Source: Mytilus galloprovincialis | Lineage: Eukaryota; Mollusca; Bivalvia; Mytilida; Mytilidae | DNA length: 64,000 nucleotides | NCBI RefSeq assembly: GCF_965363235.1 | Contig: NC_134849.1 | Location: 64,623,122-64,687,121, forward strand | Direction of reading: 5' to 3' | Shown: in pieces, positions 3,366 through 21,665 of the stretch | Numbering within the stretch: position 1 is the stretch's first letter | How the letters are laid out: each line of letters begins with the position of its first letter | Program-made: the position numbers and the translations under genes | Notes under the pieces: generated by a model | The model's database searches: none | Told to the model about the DNA's origin: nothing | What the model saw: only the letters and a program-made list of their open reading frames with translations

Positions 3366-4113
3366 TTTGAAAATCATGATCCGTCTATTTTTTTAAGGGG
3401 AATATTTTATACGATAAAAACAAACTTTTTATTACACAACTTATAAATAGGCAACTATTTCTGTAAATCACTTTTTTATTAAGTTAAATACAGTCAAGTC
3501 AAAATTCAAGATACGTGATGTGTGAAATGAAAATTATAATCGCATGTTTTACAATATATATGCCAATCAATAAGTTAACATTTCCCGCGCGTGCCTTCTA
3601 CACACACGTCATTAACTGCAGTATCAAAACTTCAAGTACAAGAACAAATATTATTGATTATATACAAAAATAGATTTCGGTCATTATCAATCCTGAGTTC
3701 CAAAACATAGACATTTTTATATACATGTACAAGTCTGAGCAATCATGTACTATTTGATTGTCTTTTTTCTTTCTGATCTAGAGACAAATCTATATCATGA
3801 AATTTCAATTATATGTTCAAAAATTGTAATATCTGTAATATATTTTCTGTATTATATTTGTGAGGGTCTCAAGTAAATCAGTGAATGCTAATTGAGTCAC
3901 CTTCTTTGAGGGGCGTAAAGACTGGGCGGGGTGGGGAGTGGGGTGAGGGGAGTAGCTTTATATCTGAACGGAAGAATGTGAAATAAAATTGCCAAACAAA
4001 TAAATCAAACAAAAACAAGAAAGACTTTGTAATTAGTATCCTGCTCAACATGTCGAACTATAGCACAAAGCTGAGTTTATTCATCATGCATTCACATTTC
4101 CACATCATGAATA

Positions 4114-4156
<43 letters not shown>

Positions 4157-4690
4157 CGCTGTACGTTAAGCAGGGTCCATTCACTCACTCATTAATCTAA
4201 TATGATAGATCCAAATGAATTTAGAAACATGTACAACCGCAAGGTTATTATTTTGTGTTGCTTTTATTATAAGTAGATAATGAAGTAACTGTTATAAAAG
4301 TTTCAAACTTGTCGTGTTGCAATTGTGCAAGTACATAATACGTTCAAAATGTGAAAGAATAGTTACTCATTTATACCAGTCAACATATATAATAATTAAT
4401 TTTAAATTGAATCTTAGTTTACATGTAACAATAATCAAATTATTAATTTGTCAGACCAGTGTAACGTTGAAAAGATACAATTTAAAAATCAAATTAGAAA
4501 AATTCATGTCAAATATTTTCAAAAAAAGTAATGGCAATTAATGAACAGGAAAATTTAATAAAAAAAATGAAAAAGGAATTTGCTATTATTATAATAATCG
4601 TTTGTATTTATTTAAAGACTAACTGTTACTATTACTTAACCTATAGCTGTACAATGTAACCTATGGGAGTGCAACCCGAGTATAAATCTC
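3366..4690. other. AT-rich intergenic with a G-run cluster and an (AT)n microsatellite
   Basis: No gene seen. A G-rich stretch with five runs of three or four G lies at 3924-3950, and a pure (AT)n tract at 4117-4155. Confidence 0.5.
4117..4155. repeat. (AT)n microsatellite
   Basis: About 19 uninterrupted AT dinucleotides. Confidence 0.95.
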
Positions 4691-4697
4691 AATAATC

Positions 4698-4760
4698 AAA
4701 AATTATACCATAGCTATCCATGGTATAATTTTCACAATTATACCATGGTTTTGTTGTATA
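4698..4760. repeat. Small palindromes of the ATTATACCATAG word
   Basis: AAATTATACCATAG at 4699 is followed by its inverse (CATGGTATAATTTT), then a third copy. The same word forms the outer arms of the 103-bp hairpin at 6169-6271. Confidence 0.65.
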
Positions 4761-4889
4761 AGGTATTCAAAAGAAAAACGTTGTCAAGACCTAGCCGCGG
4801 CCGTCTGATTTTTTTTTTATGGAAACAACAAAGTCAGTGTGGGGCCTCTAAGCTAATTTGCCCGCTTTGCACCAGCTGAAATAAATGAT

Positions 4890-13344: not shown

Positions 13345-13437
13345 AATTAAGAATGGAAATGGGGAATGTGTCAAAGAGACAACAATCCGACCATAGTGGA
13401 GACAACAGCTGTAGGCTACCAAAGGTTCTTCATTGTA
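13345..13437 (-). repeat. Family A fragment (minus strand)
   Basis: aatggaaatggggaatgtgtc, caacaatccgaccatag and ccaaaggttcttcattg are the inverse of family A's 3' end. The fragment is cut by the transposon beginning at 13438 and resumes at 15814. Confidence 0.7.
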
Positions 13438-15813
13438 CAGTCATTCCCAAAAAATGGGTACAAATCGAATGTAGACACTGTTAAAAAATAAATTTCAACT
13501 GAGCAGAGAGAGAGTGTTGTTTTCTTCTGTGTCTATATCTAGTCTGTCATTTTTTTAATTTTTACTTACACCATTTTAGTTGTTTTCTAGTTTTAGCATT
13601 TTTTGTAAGACAAGGTAAGTATGAACGTATCGGAGGTTAGTGTTGTATAAAGTCATCTTAAAAATTGCATTAGAGAAAAACACAAGATTTAAATCCAGGC
13701 TCATGTGAAATGGGTTACATTTACCACCATACCAAACTGATTTATACGTATTATTCTGTATATATTGAAAGCAAATACCAATTTTAAGGTCTGAATTAAT
13801 ATAGTGTTTAAAAAATAATTCAAATAAGTAGTTTTCACAACTTATTTAGTAATAAATTTAAACTAATGAAATGTTATGCTGTATAATATTTTAGTTTCAT
13901 AATACAGCTTTCCAGGAAAAACCCTATTATTTATGTTTTGAATCACTTGTATGTATTTTTTTATGCTTGTATTAATCCACACCCCCATCTTTGTTACGGA
14001 GGTTGATATCAAACCAGTATCTGAATGCTGATACATAGTAACACTTAACTCTTTAATGCTAGCTTTTCTAAACAATTTATTGACATTACAAACTAAAAAA
14101 CTGTTTTCTATCAAGTTATATGTTTCTTTTAGTCAACTGGACTTGTTCTTGTCAAAATCTCCGTAACGATTCATGAACTTTCACTCAAAAATATGTTTTA
14201 CCTAAACCGAATACTGTTCAACTTAATTTTATTAGCTCTATACAGATAATGTCATCTTCTTTAACACCATAATGTTTGTATTATACTCAACTATGAAGTT
14301 TTGGAGTCAAAATAGTTTCATTTCGAAAATTTCTATCCTCCGTAACGACATTTAAAACCTCCATAACGGACAATTCCAGTTCTTACCAACAGCAAACATA
14401 TAAATGAATGTAAATATTGAAATTAAATGACAAACAAGACAACAGAATTAAACATTTTTCTTAGTAAATCGTTATCTAAAAAGAGTAAAGTCCTGTTAGA
14501 GAAAAAAAAACTTTTTTTCCTTAAATTTATATCCTCCGTAACGTAAATCAATGATGTCGTCTATGATTGACATCACCTTTTGATTTTTATTAGTGATAAT
14601 TGATGAACTGATTTGGTATCTATAACAATGTACAAGAATTTCAATTGGTATGATCGTGTTTACATGCATCTTTAGATTTTTTTTATTTGCATAACCTCCG
14701 TTACATTGATGAGTCCTAAATAATCTTGAAAATGTTTGCCATAAACTGCTGTTAAAGTTATGATTGTCGTCGTAATTACACAAGTTGTGTTGTAGACTAT
14801 TTTAAATCTAAGAAAATGGCTGATATAACGTTTATTAAACGTTATAATGTTACTCACATAATAGGGAAAAAACAAGTTAACCTACCTTTCTCAAAACAAC
14901 ATTTTTTTTCTCCAAATCTGTATTTTGTTTGTCTGTTTTCTTTATAATAAATGATGTCTGCTACTAAAATGACTTTCGGCAGTGTCGGCAGCCGCTGATA
15001 CTGATAAAAAAGTCTGACAACTTAACTGTAAATAACTGCGTCACGGAGGTTATTTAAACGGAGGTTAGTTTTATTTACATTATACATGGAAATATGTAAC
15101 AATATTGTTGAGTTGCTTTCTCAAAACTGATTATTGAGAAGCTTTATGGGTGCTTTCAATGAAATAATCATCATTTTGATTTGTTCTTGGTTAGTGCGTT
15201 CCAAAATACGCGTTACGTAGGTTGGATTCTTATATGCGACAATCGAAAAAAAGAGAAAGAGAAGATTTTTTTTGATTTTTCGTTTCATTGCAATAAAAGT
15301 TAAAGGTAGGATTTTAAAATTTGATGTATCAACTTTGCTTCAAGTCACATTGGGCATGATTTCCAATCATATAAATATGTTTTGACTGTACCTAAAGATA
15401 CGTTACGGTAGGTTATACGTTTATCGGCGACATTGGTTTAATGGGTAAATCAAAGTGTATATTATAACTTTTGATTCTAAAATATTTTTGTGGATAAAAA
15501 TCCCTATAGTGTCAAGTAAAAAAAGCAAATCTAATCATGATTTAGATGAAATAAAGTATTTTAATTCACACCGATATTTGGAGTTTTTCTTGGCGACATT
15601 CGGAATTCGTGTGATTTCCGTATATTGAATCGAAAATCACACAAATATATTTACGATATACATCACAAAAGAATATAATTTTATTTTAGTATACATATTA
15701 ATCACTTAGAACACAAAAAAGATTATCTGTGACATATGTTAAGCTTGCATTTTGTGGTTATTTGCCGGCGACACTGAAATTTTGTAATTGTACCCATTTT
15801 TTGGGAATGACTG
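13438..15813. mobile_element. 2376-bp non-autonomous DNA transposon with perfect 26-bp TIRs
   Basis: The ends (13438-13463 and 15788-15813) are perfect 26-bp inverted repeats starting CAGTCATTCCCAAAAAATGG. TGTA flanks both sides (13434-13437 and 15814-15817). A related unfilled site, ttcattgtagtgagaa at 16190-16205, shows the target before insertion, so either a 4-bp TGTA duplication or a 2-bp GT duplication with TIRs one base longer is possible. No transposase frame is visible. The interior repeats CGTTACGGAGGTTA-like words (about 13,624 to 15,415) and a ggcgacatt word (15,234-15,770) every 150-350 bp. Confidence 0.85.
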
Positions 15814-16575
15814 TGTAGTGAGAATTAACTCCCGCACATGAGACAAGATAGACAAACAAGCAATGTTTATCCGACACGAGTTAAGAAAGACAAACAAGCA
15901 ATATTTATCCAAAAATGGTTGACACCCAACAAGGGAAGTGAGGGGTTCCAAAACAACCAAGGCTACGAATGAGTCTGAAATGACAACGAATTTATGAATG
16001 GCGGTCAACAAATGGAGACATAAAGGCCAAACCCAGCAGGCAGGTTGCAGTCGTGCCTTGAAAAAAGTATTCAATATATCAGTCCGGCGAAACAGACACT
16101 CTGGTCAGATATGGGATTTGCATTCGAACCGTGAAACAAGCCCCCCCCCCCCCCCCCCAACAAAATACGCCGATGTTTATTCATCAAAGGTTCTTCATTG
16201 TAGTGAGAATTAACTCCCGCACATGAGACAAGATAGACAAACAAGCAATGTTTATCCGACACGAGTTAAGAAAGACAAACAAGCAATATTTATCCAAAAA
16301 TGGTTGACACCCAACAAGGGAAGTGAGGGTTTCCAAAACAACCAAGGCTACGAATGAGTCTGAAATGACAACGAACTTATGAATGGCGGTCAACAAATGG
16401 ACACATAAAGGCCAAACCCAGCAGGCAGGTTGCAGTCGTGCCTTGAAAAAAGTATTCAATATATCAGTCCGGCGAAACAGACACTCTGGTCAGATATGGG
16501 ATTTGCATTCGAACCATGAAACAAGCCCCCCCCCCCCCCCCCCCCCCCCAACAAAATACGCCGATGTTTATTCAG
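15814..16575. repeat. 385-bp tandem duplication with poly-C tracts
   Basis: Unit 1 from about 15,814 and unit 2 from about 16,199 are nearly identical (agaattaactcccgcacatg.. through ..acgccgatgtttattca). Each contains a homopolymer C tract, at 16,140-16,158 and, longer, at 16,527-16,549. The Pro- and Gly-run frames here are artefacts of those tracts. The start resembles the inverse of family A (agcgagaatt-cccgcac). Confidence 0.85.
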
Positions 16576-21514: not shown

Positions 21515-21665
21515 CAGTGGCAGATCCAGAAATTTTCATAAGTGAGGGCCCACTGACTGCCTAAGAGGGGGCCTGCTCCAGTCATGATTCAGTGATTCCC
21601 TATATAATCAACCATAATTTTTCCCAGAAAAAGGGGGCCCTGGCCCCCACCTAAATCCGCCTCTG
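21515..21665. mobile_element. 151-bp hAT-like MITE remnant
   Basis: The ends cagtggcagatccag and (inverted) cagaggcggatttag form imperfect 15-bp TIRs of the widespread CAGNGGCGGATCC type. The interior is rich in ggggcc/ggcccc. The TSD is not clear. Confidence 0.6.

Follow-up and report, generated by a model that had tools for sequence, protein, structure and literature searches.

A nonautonomous DNA transposon of Mytilus galloprovincialis and its likely autonomous partner

By description, the known DNA transposons that most resemble the element reported here belong to the Sola superfamily. Amoebozoan Sola2 elements are described in PMC3627910 with an 888-residue transposase, terminal inverted repeats (TIRs) of 12–21 bp and AT-rich 4-bp target duplications, and the Sola1 elements curated from bivalves have a mean length of 5,445 bp according to PMC10294476. 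Members of the CMCT clade (EnSpm, Mirage, Chapaev, Transib and Plavaka), Chapaev included, are recorded in PMC12730594 with CA..TG termini and duplications of 2–5 bp. The element that we compare with these is a 2,376-bp insertion in the mussel Mytilus galloprovincialis, at positions 13438–15813 (+ strand) of a stretch of 64,000 nucleotides (contig NC_134849.1, positions 64,623,122 to 64,687,121), the whole of which we call the window. It has CAG..CTG ends, duplicates 4 bp of its target and carries no transposase gene. A longer copy with the same TIRs and a long open frame, referred to below as L072, lies in the same genome, so that a gene-less repeat is now tied to a specific candidate driver.

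Ends, genomic copies and target sites

The 26-mer CAGTCATTCCCAAAAAATGGGTACAA stands at 13438–13463 and its exact reverse complement at 15788–15813. Across the family the TIR is 28 bp long (CAGTCATTCCCAAAAAATGGGTACAATT, ending in AATT), with the left TIR at 13438–13465 (+) and the right TIR, placed by its pairing with the left one and by the genomic copies, at 15786–15813 (−); at left-end position 27 the window copy reads A instead of T, its first 26 positions being perfect. TGTA is found on both sides of the element (13434–13437 and 15814–15817). The left flank (13420–13437) recurs unchanged at 16185–16202 (+), within the following tandem unit; starting at 15814, the right flank aligns with 16199 onward (300 bp, 99%); and the two matches overlap by exactly TGTA, at 16199–16202, in this neighbouring 385-bp unit. 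The overlap is the empty site that an earlier reading of this DNA, made from its letters alone (the sequence-only reading), had put at 16,190–16,205. That reading had seen a TIR transposon with perfect 26-bp repeats, flanked by TGTA and lying next to an unfilled target; comparison of the sequences confirms each of these, and the ends are right to the base. It had also noted the absence of a transposase, which holds: the wholly internal frames of at least 50 codons in the window copy span just 55–95 codons, and the three longest have no Pfam family above the cut-off (best E 0.015).

The sequence-only reading had further proposed to search mussel genomes with the TIR. In the host assembly (1.38 Gb, 331 contigs) the 26-mer occurs exactly 194 times and its reversed control not once; the pairing of the TIRs is therefore not due to chance, and the possibility that no other copies have these ends falls away. 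Inside the window, the first 11 TIR bases have three matches in total, the third at 21590 with one mismatch, and three or more were obtained in 3 of 100 shuffles. We placed 189 of the 194 occurrences (93 left-type and 96 right-type ends). They make up 75 end pairs less than 25 kb apart, of which 59 span 2,357–2,397 bp, with 18 left and 21 right ends having no exact mate. The first 163 bases of the element are 99–100% identical in all 40 copies scored (40 of 122 candidates). Among 13 full-length copies, 12 deviate from the majority by 0.8–1.3% and one by 2.9%, and this low divergence points to recent spread. Comparison of the copies thus indicates that the window element is a real, recently spread nonautonomous DNA transposon.

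To describe this family as new-looking, as the sequence-only reading did, is fair. No earlier description was found among the titles and abstract openings listed by the literature searches, and an earlier entry is possible, since Repbase and most subscription journals lie outside that literature. As literature text, the first 11 bases of the TIR returned nine papers, all unrelated by title, and six peptide strings from the core of the enzyme described below returned no paper.

For 46 of the 75 end pairs, the window site among them, we read the sequence on either side. An exact 4-bp duplication is present at 36 of these 46 sites, as against 1.8% of 2,070 mispaired flanks, while the other ten comprise two sites with a 5-bp match, five with a 3-bp match and three with neither. 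Taken alone, the window site would also permit a 2-bp GT duplication, with ends ACAGTC...GACTGT, which the sequence-only reading had kept as its alternative to the preferred 4 bp. However, the A...T flanks that this requires are present at just 13 of the 46 sites, and the exact 4-bp duplication abuts CAG...CTG at 36; on the 46 sites we rule the 2-bp duplication out, leaving it a negligible chance. The length of the duplication, which that reading had wished to see fixed on many copies, is thus settled at 4 bp as it preferred.

The 36 exact duplications are of 27 different 4-mers, AT-rich at their outer positions (A or T at 62 of 72). The pattern RY-N4-RY fits 22 of the 36 sites (58 of 72 half-sites) but only 61 of 936 background windows, and C or G occupies 32 of 72 outer positions of the target. 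The target is therefore a loose palindrome, (C)RY|WNNW|RY(G), with which the window's own site, CAT|TGTA|GTG, agrees.

The long partner and its enzyme

The sequence-only reading had called for an autonomous copy with the same ends, and the pair at C10:58301947-58307225 (L072:98-5376) is likely to be one. This pair spans 5,279 bp, with identical 28-bp ends and TATA as the duplicated target, and its minus strand holds a long open frame, of 891 codons from stop to stop and 877 residues from the first ATG. We took the protein as the 845 residues that begin with MPFSNAERQRRYREK (L072:1154-3688), because the nearest complete relative starts at the matching place. A second copy of the gene, at C11:71215868-71221110, has a broken frame and an AGTA duplication and, over the 970 bases that were read, is about 98% identical to L072; a third copy, whose left end lies at C9:74715142, has decayed further. 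Among the longer end pairs read for frames, the insert of L048 excepted, L072 alone has a long gene. None of the others was accepted as autonomous: L043–L047 and the pairs of 10.9 and 10.7 kb have other DNA inside, with a longest stop-to-stop frame of 170 codons (L045), and the longest frames of L073–L076 do not exceed 159 codons.

The short element can be aligned to L072 throughout, except for two stretches of 379 and 2,533 columns that are present only in L072. Between these two gaps lies a 30-bp remnant of the transposase gene (14233–14262, − strand), which aligns with the codons for KEDDIIWIKL of L072, is identical to them at 24 of 30 bases (manual count) and reads KEDDIICIEL in the majority of short copies. 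Given this alignment, with a gene remnant between two gaps, the short form is an internal-deletion derivative. The TIRs of L072 and the short form are the same at 56 of 56 positions, whereas outside the TIRs and the 13-bp sites discussed below 1823/2143 positions agree (85%), a pattern to be expected if a single transposase still recognises both forms. On this comparison, L072 is the likely autonomous partner of the window element.

The 845-residue protein has no Pfam match above the cut-off and none in NCBIfam or PHROGs; a sequence search of the PDB gave nothing below E 0.06, a search of BFVD nothing at E 0.001 or lower, and searches of IMG/VR, GTDB genomes and phage records found no relatives. 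Its own genome holds at least 52 matches (51 of 582 candidates scored), some at 29–42% identity, including a group of seven copies, and several of these relatives are without internal stops, for example in frames of 850, 868, 891 and 867 codons. We aligned the core of the enzyme with six relatives, one nearly whole and five as cores, and found D465, E468, D548, E580, H583, K585 and D589 invariant in all seven proteins. A model of the core, with a predicted template modelling (pTM) score of 0.73 and a mean predicted local distance difference test (pLDDT) score of 71, orders its strands as in an RNase H-like fold; D465 follows strand 1, D548 stands where strand 4 ends, and E580 precedes the last helix. 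The top Foldseek matches are a terminase nuclease (E 8e-5), Piwi (0.013), endonuclease V (0.02) and RNase H (0.1). Alignment and model together indicate that the L072 protein has an RNase H-like DDE (Asp-Asp-Glu) core, with three predicted catalytic acidic residues.

The last 110 residues, conserved in four relatives, weakly resemble Tudor domains. In a search against PDB sequences, seven of nine matches were to PHF20/PHF20L1 (E 0.06–0.45); the fold matches included the Tudor domains of PHF19/PHF1 (probability 0.77–0.93, E 0.29–0.45), and Pfam gave a MORC2 chromo-like match below the cut-off (E 0.002). A Gypsy retrotransposon described in 2025 was, to the knowledge of its authors as stated in PMC12477816, the first transposable element reported to carry a Tudor domain. 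If confirmed, a Tudor-like domain in a DNA transposase would be worth note.

Two of the relatives, at C9:29560787-29563270 (in L125) and C9:29773622-29776105, score equally, each with 850 codons and no stops, and lie about 213 kb apart in opposite orientation. They could be either a recent duplication or members of a young autonomous family.

Internal sites and a proposed mechanism

From the short element itself we picked by eye a 13-bp motif, AACCTCCGTAACG. The short form contains ten 13-mers with at most three mismatches to it, in both orientations, whereas 100 first-order resampled sequences have a mean of 0.3 and a maximum of 2. In the window, sites 1 and 2 (13626–13638 and 13992–14004) are on the minus strand; sites 3 to 7 (14156–14168, 14335–14347, 14356–14368, 14531–14543 and 14693–14705) are on the plus strand; and sites 8 to 10 (15039–15051, 15211–15223 and 15401–15413) are again on the minus strand.

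All 130 bases of the ten sites are the same in L072, each site's own deviations from the motif included, compared with 85% agreement elsewhere. In 20,000 draws of ten random 13-mers the agreement stayed at 127 or below, and the best of 2,197 circular shifts reached 129. A count that does not depend on the motif gave the same picture: of the 64 7-mers with at least four copies, eight are conserved in full, and every one of these derives from the 13-bp motif (one extends a base beyond it). Three GGCGACA repeats near the right end, at 15426–15432, 15592–15598 and 15767–15773 (all +), are likewise intact between the short form and L072.

The sites also vary less among the short copies. In 36 of these (38 loci, two copies each being split over two), the sites depart from the majority at 28 of 4,342 bases, as against 1,034 of 71,763 elsewhere, with gaps counted as mismatches and matches below 93% identity or 100 bp dropped. 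Fisher's test gives p = 2.6e-6, which is a guide only, since the copies share ancestry; of the 2,197 shifts, three gave variation as low, as did seven of the 20,000 random sets. The difference is present both for CpG and for other bases. Thus, the ten sites appear to have been kept intact by selection and are probably needed for the element to move.

An alternative is that the sites serve the transposase gene as promoter or enhancer elements, are dispensable for transposition and were inherited after recent loss of the gene. This fits with the position of eight of the 12 listed matches in L072, at 3806–4878, which puts them upstream of a start codon near element position 3591. However, some sites lie downstream of the gene, and the lower variation at the sites was found in 36 copies that no longer have the gene; we regard this alternative as rather unlikely. 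Because copies without a gene to regulate still keep the sites intact, we infer instead that these sites bind the transposase or a cofactor. In Ac and En/Spm, transposase-binding repeats are subterminal, close to the ends of the element. The mussel element resembles these DNA transposons in that a short motif recurs several times within it, in either orientation, but differs in that the predicted sites are spread over positions 189 to 1974 of its 2,376 bp.

What was directly observed (ends, copies, duplication length, target bias, partner gene, its remnant and site conservation) would be accounted for if the short form is a nonautonomous element mobilised by a DDE enzyme of the L072 type through the shared TIRs, with the ten sites acting in cis, and we consider this explanation, as a whole, highly probable. 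The enzyme would recognise the 28-bp TIRs common to the long and short forms and would excise both by cut-and-paste, catalysis and mobilisation in trans being presumed. Insertion would follow at a 4-bp staggered cut within the palindromic target, and repair of this cut would leave the 4-bp duplication. The ten 13-bp sites and the three GGCGACA repeats would be cis-acting sites that a copy must keep in order to move, most simply by binding the transposase or a host cofactor. In this way, the conserved sites make a concrete prediction of the DNA that a hitchhiker has to retain, a question that in our judgement is open for most animal nonautonomous elements.

Several observations weigh against this explanation or parts of it. 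The exact 4-bp duplication is missing at ten of the 46 sites. L072 and the short form diverge by 13.5%, and L072 is therefore a sister of the short form's parent rather than the parent itself. The frame is open in just one of the three gene-bearing copies, the other two having stops. The Foldseek matches to the core are weak (template modelling score about 0.3), with no solved transposase among the 50 listed, and the full-length model is poor (mean pLDDT 55). The C-terminal stretch compared with Tudor domains also weakly matches unrelated kinds of protein (GH97_C, phage baseplate and MutS2 SH3). Finally, low variation in the TIRs is biased, as the copies were mostly found through an exact TIR match.

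Superfamily placement and variant copies

Inverted ends and a duplication of fixed length are present at many loci, as in the DDE cut-and-paste class, and it is the partner that carries the RNase H-like core, which the window copy lacks. Within this class our best guess, made by description only, is that the family belongs to Sola (Sola1 or Sola2), a placement that could equally well prove wrong. The duplication is of 4 bp and AT-rich, as the counts given above attest, and the sizes agree: the mussel family, with 845 residues, 28-bp TIRs and 5,279 bp, shares with Sola1 and Sola2 short TIRs, a transposase of about 850–890 residues and an element of about 5.4 kb. On the other hand, the mussel TIR is longer than that of Sola2, the recorded Sola2 target AWWT is just loosely like WNNW, and length does not single out Sola, the bivalve Academ elements being similar in mean length (5,565 bp) in PMC10294476.

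Membership of the CMCT clade is the next placement to be weighed. The mussel element has CA..TG termini and a duplication that falls within 2–5 bp, both as recorded for that clade. However, the protein has no match above the cut-off to any Pfam family. A large insert precedes the catalytic E in CMCT enzymes, whereas in the mussel enzyme E580 is just 32 residues past D548, a close spacing. We hold this placement to be improbable. The remaining weight is left to Academ, to other lineages or to a new lineage, and novelty at the level of the superfamily is undecided.

Ginger elements, as described in PMC2836005, have TGTNR termini and a Gypsy-like integrase, and Ginger2 duplicates 4 bp at the AT-rich palindrome RTATAY. 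The mussel element is like Ginger2 in its 4-bp duplication and AT-rich palindromic target, but has CAGTC ends, and its protein has no Pfam integrase match. Ginger1 and Ginger2 thus fail on the termini, on the targets and on the Gypsy-integrase-like transposase. Of the superfamilies named in the sequence-only reading, then, Ginger drops out on its recorded termini and targets, Sola stands as a best guess by description, and Chapaev shares the termini and duplication range of its clade.

KolobokP, which is known from Mytilus, leaves solo long terminal direct repeats (LTDRs) that PMC9587614 describes as about 450 or 660 bp long, with 5'-RR..YY-3' ends, TIRs of at most 18 bp and duplications of 3–5 bp. 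The window element could be taken for such a solo LTDR, as these too are bounded by short TIRs and by duplications in that range. It is ruled out, with a vanishingly small chance of being right, by length (2,376 bp), by termini (CA..TG ends and a 28-bp TIR) and by structure, L072 having no flanking direct copies of the short element. The same source gives TTAA as the duplication rule of piggyBac and Kolobok, and these were rejected because TTAA occurs just once among the 36 exact duplications. The PHIS groups (Harbinger, ISL2EU, Pangu and Nuwa) have group-specific duplications of 2–3 bp (AT, ANT, TNA, CWG) in the account of PMC4482050, which 4 bp of varied sequence do not match, and they too were set aside; PMC10045372 gives PHIS either no duplication or one of 1–4 bp, and so allows up to 4.

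We also looked for relatives with the same ends and a different interior. The first 15 bases combined with any base other than A at position 31 gave 13 matches (reversed control, 3) and no new family, six of these loci having been inspected and seven judged from 31 bases; interiors with A at 31 are missed by this pattern, and 5 of the 194 TIRs are unplaced.

Several copies differ from the usual form. A 117-bp miniature at L071:1501-1617 (C14:42036186-42036302) has both TIRs and little else, with no 4-bp duplication in its flanks. At C6:69691799-69693001 (L064) there is a 1,203-bp short form, the TIR at its far end being reduced to about its first 17 bases. The copy at C3:14295716-14306647 (L039/L040) is interrupted by an insert of about 8.6 kb that is bounded by CCCAG...CTGGG and flanked by TA at either end; stop-to-stop frames in the joined stretch reach 120 codons at most. 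Three further copies (L044, L045 and L046) have inserts of 2.0–2.7 kb at one spot, about element position 659, within a base or two. Two of these inserts start alike (ATCAAAGAGCTG) and the third is different, and the position is a possible insertion hotspot. In the window, the 385-bp tandem unit beside the element (15814–16574) contains a run of 18 C, and over 300 bp its sequence is 99% identical to that of the unit that follows.
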